In this document: positions 26,047-39,273 of the stretch, in pieces
How the letters are laid out: every line of letters starts with the position of its first letter
Numbering within the stretch: position 1 is the stretch's first letter
Assembly: GCA_028821475.1 (NCBI GenBank)
Contig: JAPPGB010000146.1
Coordinates: 230 to 52,150 of the forward strand
DNA length: 51,921 bases
DNA from: Spirochaetaceae bacterium
Lineage (GTDB): Bacteria > Spirochaetota > Spirochaetia > SZUA-6 > Bin103
Direction: 5' to 3'
Notes under the pieces: model-generated
What the model saw: the letters and a program-made list of their open reading frames with translations, nothing else
The model's database searches: none
Told to the model about the DNA's origin: nothing
Program-made: the position numbers and the translations under genes

Positions 26047-27555
26047 ATGTTGACGCGTCTCTCTGTTTCAGGCTTCAAGAACCTGGTTGATGTGGATCTC
26101 CACCTTGGTGCATTTACCTGCGTCGTCGGACCCAATGGTGCAGGGAAGTCCAACCTCTTCGACGCAATTCGGTTTCTCAGTGCACTAGCCAACCACACGT
26201 TCCTGGAGGCGGCCACCTCGGTCCGCGATCAACACAGCCGTACTGCTCAGATACGGGACCTGTTCCATCACGTGGGCAGTCGCTATGACGACAACATGAA
26301 GTTTGTTGCGGAGATGATCGTTCCCGGAAGCGCGACCGACGATTTGGGACAGGAGGCCAAAGCAAGCATTACGTTCTTGCGCTACACTCTGGAACTCGCC
26401 TACCGAGAGTCCAACAACAGCTTGGCGCCGGGAGAGCTGGAGATTGTCAAGGAGGAGCTGGTTCATGTCGCACAGCGTGACGCAGCACGACACCTTCCAT
26501 TTCCTCACAGCGCCAAGGATTGGCGCAAGTCGGTGGTACAGGGACAGAGGTTCGCACGCTACTTCATCTCAACCGAAGGGGAGGGTCAGAACCGGGTTAT
26601 CAAGCTGCATCAGGATGGCGGCAGTAGCGGGCGTCCCTTGAGCCGGCCGGCTGCCAATCTGCCGCGCACGGTGCTTTCGGCGGCAAATGCAACCGAAAGT
26701 CCTACCGTGCTGACTGCTCGCCGCGAGATGGAGGCATGGCAGCTCGTGCAATTGGAACCCAGTGCCATGAGGCAGCCCGACGAATTCGTTTCGCCAACCC
26801 ATATGGGCACGGACGGACGGCATCTGGCTGCTACCCTGTATCGATTGGCCCGTAGTGCGGAACAATACGGGCACAATGGCAACCGAGAAGCTGGTACCGG
26901 TATTCATCCGTCTGCTCCGAACGGCGAAAACCTACGAGCATATAGTCAGATCGCCAACCGTCTCGGAGAACTTATCGACGACGTGCATGGTATCTACGTA
27001 GATCTCGATGAAAAGCGAGAGCTCTTGACGTTGTACGTTAGAGACAGGGATGGGACTTCACATCCTGCACGGGCGCTGTCGGATGGGACGTTGAGGTTTC
27101 TTGCATTGTCCGTTCTGGAGAGCGATCCCAAGATGCAGGGTGTTCTCTGTCTGGAAGAACCGGAGAATGGCATTCATCCGGAGCGGATCCCAGCCATACT
27201 CGAGCTTCTGATGGACATTGCCGTCGACACTCAGCAGTCTGTCGGCATCGAGAATCCGTTGCGCCAGGTTATTGTCAACACACATTCGCCGGTAGTATTC
27301 CAGCAGGTCCCGGATGACAGCGTGGTTTTCGTTAAGCCGATCGAGGCCGTGGACAATACCGACCGTCGCTTCAAGAGTGCGCAATTCCTCTGTTTATCCG
27401 ATACTTGGCGTGCGCAGGACCGTGAGCACGCAGCACGGGGCGACCTCCTGCCTTATCTGAATCCGGTATTGTCCGAGGAGCAGTCGGACCCCCCGGTCAA
27501 GAAACGGGTGGTGGACCGGGACGACGTGCGGCAACTCCTTTTGTTCCCTCACTAG
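26047..27555 (+). CDS. AAA/OLD-like ATPase, first of an ATPase-TOPRIM pair (copy 1)
   Basis: 502 residues from ATG 26047. LSVSGFKNLVDVDLHLGAFTCVVGPNGAGKSNLFDAIRF is a RecF/SMC-type N-terminus with Walker A GPNGAGKS; a long insertion (about 60-330) follows, then a signature-like ALSDGTLRFLALSVL, Walker B GVLCLEEPENGIHPERI and an H-loop VIVNTHSPVVFQQ. This is the AAA15/AAA21 layout of OLD, PARIS AriA and AbiL-type ATPases, but the TOPRIM is not fused: it seems to be the next gene, 9 bases downstream. Codon use and base composition are visibly less GC-rich than in the flanking genes, suggesting acquisition. A paralogue without partner lies at 41999. Role in phage defence is inference. Confidence 0.85.
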   Translation: MLTRLSVSGFKNLVDVDLHLGAFTCVVGPNGAGKSNLFDAIRFLSALANHTFLEAATSVRDQHSRTAQIRDLFHHVGSRYDDNMKFVAEMIVPGSATDDLGQEAKASITFLRYTLELAYRESNNSLAPGELEIVKEELVHVAQRDAARHLPFPHSAKDWRKSVVQGQRFARYFISTEGEGQNRVIKLHQDGGSSGRPLSRPAANLPRTVLSAANATESPTVLTARREMEAWQLVQLEPSAMRQPDEFVSPTHMGTDGRHLAATLYRLARSAEQYGHNGNREAGTGIHPSAPNGENLRAYSQIANRLGELIDDVHGIYVDLDEKRELLTLYVRDRDGTSHPARALSDGTLRFLALSVLESDPKMQGVLCLEEPENGIHPERIPAILELLMDIAVDTQQSVGIENPLRQVIVNTHSPVVFQQVPDDSVVFVKPIEAVDNTDRRFKSAQFLCLSDTWRAQDREHAARGDLLPYLNPVLSEEQSDPPVKKRVVDRDDVRQLLLFPH

Positions 27556-27564
27556 TTGCGATCT

Positions 27565-28215
27565 GTGCATCGACTGCACTACACCCTGGTGTCCGACGGG
27601 ACGTCCGATCGCGCATTGCTACCGATTCTATCGTGGCTGCTGCGGGTCTTTTGCGGTTCGCTGCCCATTCAGCCGGCACTTGCTGATTTGAGGAGGCTGA
27701 GGAATCCCCCAAGATCGCTCGCGGACCGTATTCAGCGGAGCATCGAACTCTACCCGTGCGATCTGCTCTTCGTCCATCGGGACGCGGAGGGAGCTGCCTT
27801 CGAAGATCGCTTGGCGGAGGTCACAGCGGCTCTGAGCGAGAGTGTAGCCACTTCAAAGCCTGCAGTTTGCATAGTTCCCGTGCGTATGTCGGAGGCGTGG
27901 TTGCTCATCGACGAGAGCGCGATTCGACATGCGGCGGGCAATCCCCGTGGTAGCGTACCCCTGGCTTTACCAGACCCGCATCGACTCGATCAGTTGCCAG
28001 ATCCCAAGCGAGTTCTTCACGAAGCTATGCGCCGGGCAAGCGGACTTCGTGGCCGCCGTCTCACTAGCTTCAACCGTCGGTTACACCGATATCGAGTGGC
28101 TGATTGGATCGATGACTTCAGCCCTCTATATCGTCTCTCTGCGTTCAGGCGCTTGTCAGCGGATCTGAAGCACGTGGTAACATCAAACGGCTGGGGGGAC
28201 CCGCACACCTCGTAG
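27565..28215 (+). CDS. TOPRIM-like (DUF4276-like) partner of the AAA ATPase
   Basis: 216 residues from GTG 27565. The N-terminus HRLHYTLVSDGTSDRALLPILSWLL has the form of a TOPRIM opening strand and loop, but with Asp where Glu is usual; CDLLFVHRDAEG is a second acidic site in the right order, and VRMSEAWLLIDESAIRHAAGN and LPDPKRVLHEAMRRASGL follow as in DUF4276-type proteins. If it is a nuclease it would be activated by the ATPase. The 9-base gap behind the ATPase gene and the shared low GC show they are one unit. The family name is from memory of the motifs and needs a profile search; the pairing itself is seen directly. Confidence 0.62.
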   Translation: MHRLHYTLVSDGTSDRALLPILSWLLRVFCGSLPIQPALADLRRLRNPPRSLADRIQRSIELYPCDLLFVHRDAEGAAFEDRLAEVTAALSESVATSKPAVCIVPVRMSEAWLLIDESAIRHAAGNPRGSVPLALPDPHRLDQLPDPKRVLHEAMRRASGLRGRRLTSFNRRLHRYRVADWIDDFSPLYRLSAFRRLSADLKHVVTSNGWGDPHTS

Positions 28216-28534: not shown

Positions 28535-29704
28535 TTGCCGCAGTACCCGCGCATCCTCGACATCGACCTTCCGCAGGGCCAGTCGGCGTTCCTGTGGGGT
28601 CCCCGCAAGACCGGCAAGTCTACGCTGTTGCGGAAGCTGTTCCCGCGCTCCGTGCGCTTCGACCTGCTCGATACCCGGTTGCTCCTGGAGTTCACGCGGG
28701 CTCCGTGGACGCTCGCGGACCGCGTCCGCGCCCTCGACCCCGTCGCCAGGGCGCATCCGATCATCATCGACGAGGTACAGAAGGTGCCGGCGCTCCTCGA
28801 TGAGGTGCATCGCCTGATCGAAAGCGACCGCCTGAGCTTCGTGCTGTGCGGCTCCAGCGCCCGCAAGGTGAAGCGCGGACGAGCCAACCTGCTCGGCGGC
28901 CGGGCATGGGGCTTCCGGCTGCATCCGCTGAGCTGGCGCGAGATTCCGGAGTTCGACCTGCTGCGCGCGCTCAATCGCGGCCTCGTGCCGCAGCACTACG
29001 ACTCCGCGCGGCACCGGCGGGCGCTGTCCGGGTACGTGGACGACTACCTCAAGGAGGAGGTGTTCGACGAAGGGCTGACGCGCAATGTGGCCGCGTTCTC
29101 ACGGTTTTTCGAAGCGCTGTCGTTCTGCCAAGGCGAGTTGCTGAATTACAGCAACGTGGCGCGCGACTGCGGCGTCGACTCCAAGACGGTGCGCGAGTTT
29201 TTCCAGATTCTCGTGGATACCCTGCTCGGTGTGTTCGTGGAACCGTTCACGGGGCGCCCCCGTTCGCGTGCGGTCATCGTGCGGGCGCCGAAGTTCTACC
29301 TGTTCGACGTCGGCGTCGCCGGCCACCTGACCGGGCGCCGCATCGGGCAGGCCGCGGGCCCGGACTTCGGGCGCGCCCTCGAGCACTTCGTGCTGATGGA
29401 ACTGCTCGCCTACCGCAGCTACCGGGAGTGCGACTACGAGGTGCGCTTCTGGCGCACCAAGTCGGGCCTGGAGTGCGATTTCGTGCTCGGGCGGGAGGGC
29501 GAGGTGGCGATCGAGGTCAAGGGCGGCGCCAACCCCGGCCCGGGAGACCTTCGGGCACTGCGTGCTTACGTGCGGGATCATCGTCCCCGTGTCGCCGCCC
29601 TGGTGTGCAATGCGAGCGCGCCACGGCGCACTCCCGACGGCATCGACATTCTGCCCTGGGAAGGGTTCCTGGAACGGCTGTGGGCCGGCACGATGGTGGC
29701 ATGA
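28535..29704 (+). CDS. AAA_14 ATPase with DUF4143 domain
   Basis: 389 residues from a TTG at 28535, the only start codon after the in-frame stop at 28508. FLWGPRKTGKSTLLRKLF is the Walker A, HPIIIDEVQKVPALLDEVHRLI the Walker B region, LCGSSARKVKRG sensor 1 and GRAWGFRLHPLSWREIPEFD the linker. The C-terminal half, YLKEEVFDEGLTRNVAAFSRFFEALSFCQGELLNYSNVARDCGVDSKTVREFFQIL and LEHFVLMELLAYRSY..VRFWRTKSGLECDFVLGREGEVAIEVKG, is DUF4143 with a nuclease-like E-x-K end. Such proteins are abundant accessory genes of unclear role, often strain-variable. Twin dyads lie directly upstream. No partner gene is evident. Confidence 0.92.
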   Translation: MPQYPRILDIDLPQGQSAFLWGPRKTGKSTLLRKLFPRSVRFDLLDTRLLLEFTRAPWTLADRVRALDPVARAHPIIIDEVQKVPALLDEVHRLIESDRLSFVLCGSSARKVKRGRANLLGGRAWGFRLHPLSWREIPEFDLLRALNRGLVPQHYDSARHRRALSGYVDDYLKEEVFDEGLTRNVAAFSRFFEALSFCQGELLNYSNVARDCGVDSKTVREFFQILVDTLLGVFVEPFTGRPRSRAVIVRAPKFYLFDVGVAGHLTGRRIGQAAGPDFGRALEHFVLMELLAYRSYRECDYEVRFWRTKSGLECDFVLGREGEVAIEVKGGANPGPGDLRALRAYVRDHRPRVAALVCNASAPRRTPDGIDILPWEGFLERLWAGTMVA

Positions 29705-35534: not shown

Positions 35535-36422
35535 CTATAAAGCACCGAGACGACCGCCACCGCCGCGCAGCCGCGGGTCGAGCAGATCCCGCAGCGCGTC
35601 GCCGAACATGTTGAGGCTGTAAACGGTAATCGTCAGCGCAAGACCGGGCCAGAGACCCAGCCACGGCGCCACCTCCATGTACCGACGCCCTTCCCGGCTG
35701 AGCAGACCTCCCCAGCTAGGGATCTGGGCTGGCAGACCGAATCCGAGGAAGCTCAGAGAAGCCTCAGAGATAATAATTCCCCCGATGTTGATGCTGAATA
35801 TGATGATTGCCACAGGCATGATATTGGGCAGGACATGTTGGCTAAATGTTCTCCATTTCGAACAGCCAATCGACTCCGCCGCCTGGAAATAGTCATTCTC
35901 CTTTACTACGATAACGGCGCCTCTTACTGTTCTCGAGCCGACGATGCCTCCTGCTATCCCCAGCGTCACTATCATCTGTGGTAAACCCCGTCCGACAATG
36001 GACATCACGGTCAACAATAGGAGGAGTCCCGGGAAGGCCATCCAGGCATCGACGAATCTCTGCACAGCCAGGTCAAATCTGCCACCAATGAATCCTGACG
36101 TGCCGCCTAGCAGGACAGCCACCACAACATTGATACTGGTCGCCGCCAGGCCGACAAGCAGCGAAATGCGAGCCCCATAGATAATACGGCTCAGGAAGTC
36201 TCGCCCCAAATGGTCGGTACCGAGCAGATACCGGGCTGATGAGCCCTGTAGCGTGTCTGCCGGGTGCACTTCCGAATACCCATAAGGGGCCAGAACATCG
36301 GCAAAGACAGCCACTAGAATCAATATCAATACAAAAACACCACATGCAGTACCGAGTGGCTTCTCTCTAATCAGCCTGATGAGGACATCAATCGACAGGG
36401 AGCGTCTCCTTGGACCGGCCAC
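35535..36422 (-). CDS. ABC transporter permease, DppC/OppC family, cluster B
   Basis: 295 residues from a GTG at 36422. IREKPLGTACGVFVLILILVAVFADVLAPYG is the first helix, YLLGTDHLGRDFLSRIIYGARIS the family motif, NDYFQAAESIGCSKWRTFSQHVLPNIMPVAII the EAA loop and LSFLGFGLPAQIPSWGGLLSREG..LRDLLDPRLRGGGGRLG the diagnostic end. It is laid next to the DppB-like gene with one base between them. Base composition in this gene and the next two is visibly less GC-rich than in most of the window, hinting that cluster B transport genes were acquired. Confidence 0.95.
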   Translation of the reverse strand: MAGPRRRSLSIDVLIRLIREKPLGTACGVFVLILILVAVFADVLAPYGYSEVHPADTLQGSSARYLLGTDHLGRDFLSRIIYGARISLLVGLAATSINVVVAVLLGGTSGFIGGRFDLAVQRFVDAWMAFPGLLLLLTVMSIVGRGLPQMIVTLGIAGGIVGSRTVRGAVIVVKENDYFQAAESIGCSKWRTFSQHVLPNIMPVAIIIFSINIGGIIISEASLSFLGFGLPAQIPSWGGLLSREGRRYMEVAPWLGLWPGLALTITVYSLNMFGDALRDLLDPRLRGGGGRLGAL

Positions 36423-36423
36423 T

Positions 36424-37380
36424 CTATGTATAGCGGACCCTTGGATCCAAAAAGGGATAAAGCAGGTCGATCAAGAGATTGATCCCTAACACCCCCGTGG
36501 CGAAAACCAGGTTCACTCCGGAGACCATTGGGTAGTCTCTACTATCGAGTCCTTCCAGCAGTAGACGACCCAGGCCCGGTAGGTTGAATATGTTCTCCAT
36601 GATAACGGAACCGCCTACCAGGATAGGCAACTGCATACCTATCAGGGTAACTACCGGAATGACGGCGTTCTTGACGGCGTGTCTGACGATGACGACCTTC
36701 TCCCGCAGACCCTTGGACCAGGCTGTCCGGATATAGTCCTGTCTGAGCACCTCCAGCATCATGGTGCGCGTCATCCGCATGGTGGCTGCAGACATGCCCG
36801 TCCCCAGAATCAGGCTCGGAATGAGGAACATTCCAAGGTTACCCAGTGGGTCGTCGGCAAATCTGATCAGCTGCATCGGTGGCGCCCAGCCCCACCAGAG
36901 TGCCGGGTAGATCATGACCATAATTGCCAGCCAGAAGTTAGGCGTCGCCAGGCCGATGACGGCCGCCGTGCGCCCAGCGTAGTCGGCGACCGTATCCTGT
37001 CGAACGGCCGAGTAGATGCCTATCGGCAGCGCTATCAGGATCCCGATGACGAGCGCCATGACACCGAGCTCGATGGTTACCGGTAGTCTAGCAAGAATCT
37101 CTTCCTCTACCGATGAACCGCCCAGCAGTGGGGTGCCGAGGGTGCCATGCAGGAGAATACCGCCCATCCACCGCCCGTACTGCACATAGACAGGCACGTC
37201 TAAACCCAGCATCTCCTCAATAGCTTCACGGTCCAACTGGGCATTCAAATAGTCGAGTTGGGATTGCATTATGTCTATGACATCGCCAGGGATGAAGCGG
37301 ACCGAGAGAAAGACCAGGACGGTCACTATGAATAGGGTGGGGATGATCAGCAATATCCGCCTGATGATATAGCCCCTCAT
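36424..37380 (-). CDS. ABC transporter permease, DppB/OppB family, cluster B
   Basis: 318 residues from ATG 37380 (MRGYIIRRILLIIPTLFIV). The N-terminal helix IIPTLFIVTVLVFLSVRFIPGDVIDIM, the EAA loop DYIRTAWSKGLREKVVIVRHAVKNAVIPVV and the end YPMVSGVNLVFATGVLGINLLIDLLYPFLDPRVRYT are as expected. It forms a channel with the DppC-like permease. It matches its cluster A counterpart closely in the first helix and EAA loop, so clusters A and B are related transport systems with different ligands. No ATPase gene is present in this cluster either. Confidence 0.95.
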   Translation of the reverse strand: MRGYIIRRILLIIPTLFIVTVLVFLSVRFIPGDVIDIMQSQLDYLNAQLDREAIEEMLGLDVPVYVQYGRWMGGILLHGTLGTPLLGGSSVEEEILARLPVTIELGVMALVIGILIALPIGIYSAVRQDTVADYAGRTAAVIGLATPNFWLAIMVMIYPALWWGWAPPMQLIRFADDPLGNLGMFLIPSLILGTGMSAATMRMTRTMMLEVLRQDYIRTAWSKGLREKVVIVRHAVKNAVIPVVTLIGMQLPILVGGSVIMENIFNLPGLGRLLLEGLDSRDYPMVSGVNLVFATGVLGINLLIDLLYPFLDPRVRYT

Positions 37381-37455
37381 CGACCCACCCAATACTCAAT
37401 ACTCAATTGAGAAAGGGAGCCGGAAGACTCGAGCTACCAGCTCCGTGTTCTCCTC

Positions 37456-39273
37456 TTAATGACCCATTGCTTCCTTCAGCTGACTGTCGATCCAGAGGTA
37501 TTGGAAGAGAGTATTATTTGCACCTCCTCCCATGATGCCTTCGCCGGCGTAGCCCATCACCCACGGCTGGACCACGTTATACACCGGGGCATCCGGACCC
37601 CAGAGAGTCCAATGCTGCTCTATGTAGTTCTTGTCCATCTCGCGACTCAGCCTTTCCACCTCTTCGACAGTGACAGCCTCTAGGAGGTCTTCATGCAGGG
37701 CATCATGGCGAGCGTCGGTAGTCGACATCTGCCAACCACTGGTGTCCCCGGACGTATGCTGCCACCATTGATCCGACGGATCAGCCTTGACGCCTGCGGT
37801 ATCGTTAACCATGTCAAAATTCAAGGCACCTCTTCTAGCCATGAATTCTGCCGAGGAAGGTGTCTCGATACTGACATCTATGCCAATCTCAGCCCAGTAC
37901 GCAGCCATGAATTCCGGCCAGCCCACATCCCACCGGGGGAAGTGCGTGAACGTGGTCTTGAATCGGATACCGTCAGCGCCGCGCGGATACCCGGCCTCAT
38001 CGAGGAGCTTCTCGGCCCCTGCCGGGTCGTAGGTATAGTATCCCTTGAGCTCCGCGGACCACTCTTCGTATGGGTAGATATAAGATGAGAATGTCCGGCC
38101 TATCCTTCCCCGTGGTAACGTATCTGCAAATCCCTTGAAGAAAGAGCTGTTCATGGTCTCGAAGTCTAGTGCCATCTGCATGGCATGGCGCACCCGGACG
38201 TCGTCAAACGGCGGCTTTTGAACGTTCATATGAACGGCGGTGCCCTCGGAGCGCTGTGACCACGCGAACTGCTGGAGTTCGGGGTTGGTCCGCTGCAGGC
38301 TCAAATGATCGTTGATACTGAATAGTTGAGTCGAGCCGGGGTGACCTATATAGTCGATGGCACCCGAGCGCAGTCCCGCCAGACGTGTTTCAAACTCTAC
38401 GATAATGAGACCCTTTACCTCGTCAACATATGGCAAGCGGTTCTCAGGCCATTTTGGGTCGAACCCCCAGTAGTTTGGATTCTTGGTGTAGGTAAAAGAA
38501 CTGCCACTAACCCAGTCAGTCAGCTCGAAGGGACCGGTGCCAACCAGGTTCCTCCAATCGGCAGCGTCACCGTGTTCCTCGATTACCTCGGGGGGGTAAA
38601 TAATCGCGGCTTGGTTATCCATGATTTGGCTCAAGGCAGTGAGACTTGGCTTCTTCATCTTTATGACAAGCGTTTGATCGTCGGTGGCCTCTATGGATTC
38701 CCAAGGCAAATCTCCGAAGGAACCTATCTGGAGGGCTTGGGGTTCGGTAAAGCCGCTGCCCAAACCCAATTGACGGTGAAAGTTATATGCTACGTCCTGC
38801 GCAGTAAGTTCCCGCCCATTCATCGGCGCCTTATCATGCCAGTGAACGCCCTGGCGGATATTGAACACATAAGTGTTGGCGTCGGGCGTTTCCCAGCTTG
38901 CCGCCAGCGCCCCCCGCAGGGCGGATACAGGCGTCCTGAAGCCGCCGTTAAAAGGATATGCGTCCCTATCCAGTGCCCAGTCCATCATGCCCAGTTTCTC
39001 ATTAACGAGACTGCCGATGAGCCCCGACGCCCGATTATTCTGAGCGGTGTCAACATTTTGGGTGGCAAACATGGCGCCAGCTCTGGCAAAGGTTATGGTC
39101 CCGCCCCACTCATGCTCAGTATGCACGTTGCCGGTGACGGGGTCGGTCACGTACCTCTTGTCGGCGGCGGCTGCCGTCGAGCCCTCGTCTGCGCCAGTGG
39201 CCCAGAGGCCGGTGGCGGTCAGGGCGAGTCCAATCAGGATCGCGAGGCACGTCTTAGGAAATGTCTGTCTCAT
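37456..39273 (-). CDS. ABC transporter substrate-binding protein (family 5), cluster B
   Basis: 605-residue periplasmic protein, first gene of the operon. ATG 39273 has a strong AAGGAGG nine bases upstream. The signal peptide MRQTFPKTCLAILIGLALTATGLWA precedes an unusual Gly/Ala-rich mature start TGADEGSTAAAADKRYV. ALRGALAASWETPDANTYVFNIRQGVHWHDKAPMNGRELTAQDVAYNFHRQ, VGTGPFELTDWVSGSSFTYTKNPNYWG and FDDVRVRHAMQMALDFE are family-5 landmarks. It is larger than cluster A's protein and diverged from it. The ligand is unknown; the oxidoreductases, ThuA and Tm-1-like genes downstream suggest a carbohydrate or alicyclic compound. Confidence 0.95.
   Translation of the reverse strand: MRQTFPKTCLAILIGLALTATGLWATGADEGSTAAAADKRYVTDPVTGNVHTEHEWGGTITFARAGAMFATQNVDTAQNNRASGLIGSLVNEKLGMMDWALDRDAYPFNGGFRTPVSALRGALAASWETPDANTYVFNIRQGVHWHDKAPMNGRELTAQDVAYNFHRQLGLGSGFTEPQALQIGSFGDLPWESIEATDDQTLVIKMKKPSLTALSQIMDNQAAIIYPPEVIEEHGDAADWRNLVGTGPFELTDWVSGSSFTYTKNPNYWGFDPKWPENRLPYVDEVKGLIIVEFETRLAGLRSGAIDYIGHPGSTQLFSINDHLSLQRTNPELQQFAWSQRSEGTAVHMNVQKPPFDDVRVRHAMQMALDFETMNSSFFKGFADTLPRGRIGRTFSSYIYPYEEWSAELKGYYTYDPAGAEKLLDEAGYPRGADGIRFKTTFTHFPRWDVGWPEFMAAYWAEIGIDVSIETPSSAEFMARRGALNFDMVNDTAGVKADPSDQWWQHTSGDTSGWQMSTTDARHDALHEDLLEAVTVEEVERLSREMDKNYIEQHWTLWGPDAPVYNVVQPWVMGYAGEGIMGGGANNTLFQYLWIDSQLKEAMGH

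Follow-up and report, generated by a model that had tools for sequence, protein, structure and literature searches.

We describe a two-gene locus in the genome of a Spirochaetaceae bacterium (GenBank assembly GCA_028821475.1, contig JAPPGB010000146.1) that is an ordinary member of a catalogued candidate system, HEC-01, and that carries an active-site variant which is shared across the family and seems not to have been reported before. The locus lies within the 51,921 nucleotides that were analysed (hereafter the window) and consists of a gene for an ABC ATPase (gene A) followed by a gene for a TOPRIM-like protein (gene B). The explanation we favour, with rather better than even confidence, is a horizontally spread HEC-01-type module in which A would regulate a TOPRIM-like nuclease, B, whose metal site is swapped in a coupled manner. 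The two-gene ATPase/TOPRIM systems form an expanding class of immune modules in bacteria, and the reciprocal exchange of two acidic residues reported below opens a direct mutational test of the HEC-01B active site.

Gene A (26047..27555, + strand; ATG at 26047, TAG stop at 27555) encodes a 502-aa ABC ATPase of the OLD/PtuA/SMC type, as assigned from Pfam (AAA_21, 8.1e-29), PADLOC and an AlphaFold model. The PADLOC model PDLC04184 (HEC-01A) covers residues 1-438 with an E value of 1.8e-98, and the structural model, with a pLDDT of 92.6, is matched by PtuA, SMC heads and OLD (TsOLD) in Foldseek at E values of about 1e-10 to 1e-12. All ABC ATPase motifs are intact on the + strand: Walker A, GPNGAGKS (residues 28-35, 26128..26151; G28, N30, G33, K34 and S35 100% conserved in 81 relatives); the ABC signature LSDGT (residues 344-348, 27076..27090; L344, S345 and G347 100% conserved); Walker B, CLEEPE (residues 368-373, 27148..27165; C368, E370, E371, P372 and E373 100% conserved); and the H-loop THS (residues 412-414, 27280..27288; T412 and H413 100% conserved). 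A sequence-only reading of this DNA had called A an OLD/AriA-like ATPase, and both the coordinates it gave and this class stand, the set of ABC motifs being complete.

Gene B (27565..28215, + strand) encodes 216 residues from a GTG start. GTG 27565 is the best start: relatives have their ATG at the aligned position, and this start leaves a gap of exactly 9 bp after the stop of A. The other candidate is a TTG in the same frame at 27556. Scanning genome contigs yielded 207 relatives of B, and the best 80 loci were retained. Among these best 80 of 207, A adjoins B in 78, and the two exceptions are contig ends. Gaps on the same strand are no longer than 20 bp in 75 of 79 pairs, 39 of which have a 4-base overlap of the ATGA type; in only one locus (L024, 6001-8220) does A follow B, and it is there encoded on the other strand. 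When 292 cyanobacterial genomes were surveyed for A instead, all six full-length proteins (E<1e-100) had B adjoining. Two further matches in that survey were A fragments and a third belonged to a distant subfamily; the ORF after this third one may be DUF4276-like, as read from the sequence, although the B profile does not match it. At the wider set of DUF4276 loci such ATPases lie alongside in nearly every case. A conserved third gene was sought and rejected, since none recurs outside close relatives; sigma-54 regulators, aminotransferases and others near the pair recur just as common families. A and B thus constitute an obligate two-gene, self-contained module. The 9-base gap and tight linkage noted from the sequence alone are real, with adjacency far beyond chance, and comparison of the homologues' neighbourhoods shows that the two are anything but rarely adjacent.

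The pair also differs in base composition from its surroundings, as had been noticed earlier. Its GC content is 57.6% compared with 67.0% in the rest of the window, which places it at the 4.6th percentile of stretches of the same length, and third-position GC is 0.64 in A and 0.62 in B versus 0.94 in the upstream gene. Across 75 loci, the pair has a lower GC than the flanking DNA in 66. Another low-GC stretch (55-56%) lies at 36001-39000 of the window. Downstream of the pair, at a distance of 319 bp, is a gene for a DUF4143/AAA_14 ATPase (28535-29704, + strand; PADLOC PDC-S01, 2e-52); PDC-S01 is a common candidate family, and this ATPase and the pair perhaps form a two-system mini-island.

Judging by record titles, the best 80 of the 207 loci with relatives of B represent at least 15 phyla. 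The pair itself is found in one of 393 genomes of its own phylum and, at the thresholds used, in six of 386 cyanobacteria and in six of 289 genomes from the phylum of a verrucomicrobial locus; it is absent from both of the same-genus genomes searched. In the same-genus genome G1078, where an empty site was looked for, the protein of the right flank has its match on contig C16 and that of the left flank on contig C55. Some copies are decayed: a Nostoc copy (L013) has a frameshifted A and a B with Gln at position 75, both partners having decayed jointly, and two cyanobacterial loci (L148 and L150) keep truncated A remnants without B, with transposase-like ORFs near the former. The pair is patchy in distribution, horizontally spread and accessory; its GC is as a rule below that of the surroundings, and it has decayed in places. 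A search for B in a viral contig collection gave no confirmed copy. One locus (L006, MT836135.1) comes from a record labelled 'Bacteriophage sp.', in which the pair adjoins ruvB and other housekeeping-type genes; the phage label is probably wrong and the contig bacterial. The genome of the window itself carries an unusual load of DUF4276/ATPase pairs. A second, more distant ATPase and B-like pair with the motif ICEGSSD is present on contig C148 (L002), where B is broken, its reading frame split and its middle missing, and seven more DUF4276 genes (L110, L117, L120, L122, L123, L124 and L125) each have an ATPase match nearby.

The nearest neighbours of the pair are mostly housekeeping genes, and within a Nostoc/Scytonema group its flanks are conserved, suggesting long vertical residence. 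Together with the essential cellular role that is reported for Cran1, an archaeal OLD-family ATPase (PMC12796447), these features would suit a module on the chromosome that serves stress response, repair or the cell cycle rather than defence. We regard that as doubtful, given that the very patchy distribution, the low GC and the decayed copies are unlike an essential function. An excess of defence genes was sought by comparing 102 nearest-neighbour ORFs from 60 loci with a small control of 83 ORFs taken from five genomes of that set, and PADLOC hits were few in both, with no obvious excess beside the pair; repeats marking an insertion site around the pair gave just weak matches, as expected by chance. 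The patchy spread and tight two-gene overlap, along with a copy on a Kovacikia plasmid, would also fit a toxin-antitoxin-like or selfish maintenance module with B as the toxin and A as antitoxin or regulator, and PARIS, which is mechanistically alike, has PDB entries that call AriA an antitoxin. That plasmid is, however, the only one among 72,556 plasmid records to carry the pair, which mostly resides on chromosomes and is seldom seen on sequenced plasmids. We consider such a module about as improbable as a stress or repair function, and it would not be exclusive of a role in defence. A defence role for the horizontally spread pair is plausible, and it is the role that we infer.

As to the identity of B, the PADLOC model PDLC04210 (HEC-01B) covers residues 1-205 (E 3.3e-24), and the protein is best described as a divergent DUF4276/TOPRIM-like one. 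It scores 17.4 bits against Pfam DUF4276 (PF14103), below the gathering score of 30.2, and 65 of 76 relatives match that family weakly (best 1.4e-7). In hhalign, the B-family profile pairs over its full length with DUF4276 proteins of the same phylum, at 97% probability. The DUF4276 profile in turn reaches OLD TOPRIM domains at 80%, whereas the B profile matches OLD TOPRIM directly at about 4%. Judged from these profiles, the TOPRIM homology of B is indirect, by way of DUF4276. The model of B (pLDDT 94.6) has the secondary-structure order β1-α1-β2-α2-β3-α3-β4-α4, which fits a TOPRIM core, and places conserved acidic residues after β1 (4-9), after β3 (67-71) and in the helix after β4; in Foldseek it found nothing below an E value of 1e-3 in PDB and BFVD, and the sequence matched no PDB chain. 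The earlier description of B as TOPRIM-like is supported by layout and by a chain of profiles via DUF4276, but not by a direct match to OLD.

Three conserved motifs, all on the + strand, mark the predicted active site. Motif I, D11-G-T-S-D15 (27595..27609), follows strand 1 and is part of the sequence VSDGTSD (residues 9-15); position 11 is Asp in 94% and Glu in 6%, the 94% being counted over the first 83 relatives, and D15 is 100% conserved. Motif II, H71-R-D73-A-E75 (27775..27789), stands at the end of and after strand 3, with H71 and D73 100% conserved and position 75 being Glu in 93% and Asp in 6%. Motif III, M108-S-E110 (27886..27894), opens the helix after strand 4, and both M108 and E110 are 100% conserved. 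In OLD enzymes the metal ligands are a Glu after β1 (E400) with an acid at +4 (E404/D381), a DxD after β3 (D455/D457) and a TxE in the next helix (T506/E508, E508 being a ligand of metal B) (PMC6755086, PMC7049728). By model topology and sequence, D11, D15 at +4, D73/E75 and M108-x-E110 of B fall at these ligand places. The place of the DxD after strand 3 reads HxDxE/D in B, so that the TOPRIM DxD may correspond either to D73-x-E75 or to H71 at the first Asp with E75 as an extra acid.

With Asp in place of the usual motif-I Glu in most members, and a His at position 71 where relatives often have an acid, B might be taken for a catalytically dead TOPRIM scaffold. This seems very unlikely to us. 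The alignment of 76 B sequences shows no variation at G12, D15, H71, D73, M108, E110 and W112, and the carboxylates at 11 and 75, which are lost only in copies that are decayed or very distant, exchange with each other reciprocally, whereas a dead site would drift. The Asp in VSDGTSD had already been picked out, and it is what most of the family has rather than a peculiarity of this copy; nor is it a simple loss of the Glu, since in motif II an Asp has in turn become Glu.

This reciprocity was counted in 92 aligned B proteins. The motif-I residue is Asp in B of the window and in 81 relatives, and Glu in nine of the 92 rows. Both positions are acidic in 89 sequences, of which 81 have D11/E75 and eight have E11/D75, with no mixed state (D/D or E/E) at all; the other rows are the Nostoc copy with the frameshifted A (D/Q), a distant sequence (L098, E/A) and one that has no position 11. 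A later relative from the family of the window genome (L169) again shows E11/D75 (ICEGSSD...HRDAD). A change between Asp and Glu takes a single third-codon-position substitution at each site. Mixed states are absent though one substitution suffices, which points to selection against them. Switches were mapped on a tree of A proteins, which excludes columns 11 and 75 of B. There are five changes per residue, at least four of them forced by well-supported branches, and the two sites change together each time; the chance that at least four of five branches coincide if the sites were independent is 4e-5 in a branch-length-weighted simulation. By mutual information with average-product correction, 11-75 is the second-ranked covarying pair of 22,155, and the 13th when the distant group is left out. 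A sign test on independent pairs gave 4/4 (p 0.125) and is underpowered. The distant group (L006 and L106-108) has the canonical E...D form, so the D...E form is probably derived and partly reverted.

The two states might instead reflect recombination that spread a B active-site segment from a single E-type lineage, and not coupled point changes that occurred repeatedly. A single origin of E11/D75 is rejected on A and B data together (p 8e-47) but not on B alone (p 0.34), and it is this latter result that makes recombination of B possible. Yet the E-type B sequences of the ingroup have D-type nearest neighbours, L066 groups with L055 as in the A tree, and each change needs but one third-codon-position substitution. 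We therefore think recombination unlikely, though a more serious contender than a dead scaffold. Repeated coupled change remains our reading, and we read D11/E75, from these alignments, as a coupled metal site that is a compensated variant and not a dead enzyme. A broader proposal, to which we give slightly less than even credence, is that HEC-01B may represent a TOPRIM nuclease class in which the motif-I Glu, supposedly invariant, and a motif-II Asp are exchangeable just as a pair, without a lasting mixed state, and have toggled at least four times, with H71 as an extra ligand or general acid/base unlike in OLD or AriB. If mutants bear the coupling out, the active site of HEC-01B would be located and the TOPRIM requirement for a motif-I Glu qualified; motif scans that demand Glu would call such enzymes dead.

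In the mechanism that we propose, A would act as a sensor or regulator ABC ATPase and B as a TOPRIM-like metal-dependent nuclease that A may hold in check or activate. Gating of B by A is proposed by analogy with PARIS, in which AriA is the sensor and AriB a two-metal RNase that acts on tRNA (PMC12409363). A challenge by phage or another foreign element would most likely release B, which might then cleave nucleic acid, whether RNA, like AriB, or DNA, like OLD. Its predicted metal site would comprise D11, D15, D73, E75 and E110, with the conserved H71 nearby, and the usual TOPRIM Glu of motif I and Asp of motif II would be exchanged in a site where both positions change just together.

Since the HEC-01A and HEC-01B models cover most of A and B, respectively, the pair is, on these profile matches, a member of HEC-01 and its type is already catalogued. 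The suggestion of a separate, little-studied type was right in that the pair is distinct from PARIS and AbiL, but PADLOC lists it as HEC-01. HEC stands for Hma-embedded candidate, a name introduced in a preprint that used guilt by embedding (Payne et al. 2024, 10.1101/2024.01.29.577857, as cited in PMC12988326); PMC12988326 reports activity for several HECs, HEC-06 among them, and does not name HEC-01 in the passages found. Our literature search found no experimental test of HEC-01, no paper naming it together with PADLOC, and none naming DUF4276. The window pair shares with HEC-01 the same two-gene content and the match of both proteins; HEC-01 has several models, and the pair belongs to the PDLC04184/PDLC04210 subgroup with the D11/E75 site. 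No Hma gene was seen beside the pair in the window, and HmaC lies near one of 60 loci. The Hma association is how the candidates were found and not a definition of the proteins, so its absence does not exclude HEC-01 membership.

Among other known systems, PARIS likewise has an OLD-type ATPase and a TOPRIM-like partner in separate genes, and A matches AriA weakly (E 0.0054 to PDB 8ux9). PARIS was rejected as an assignment, in agreement with the earlier remark that the partner is not its DUF4435 protein: neither B nor any of 76 relatives has a DUF4435 match. B, with its 216 aa, also has another motif II, while AriB keeps the motif-I Glu (E26). AbiL (AbiLi/AbiLii) and MADS share the same broad ATPase class, A matching AbiLi at 2.3e-18 and mad3 at 2e-26. 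AbiL was rejected, as B matches HEC-01B models alone in PADLOC at E values up to 1, with no AbiLii; so was MADS, since A scores 147 bits against an NCBIfam MAD3 cut-off of 420 and B has no mad model match, nor was a mad gene seen adjoining the pair in the window. The OLD family nucleases (TsOLD, BpOLD and GajA) have an ABC ATPase of the same class, and the conserved acids of B stand at the places of E400/E404, D455/D457 and E508; OLD, however, is one polypeptide with the canonical Glu and DxD, whereas the pair is made of separate genes and carries D...HxDxE.
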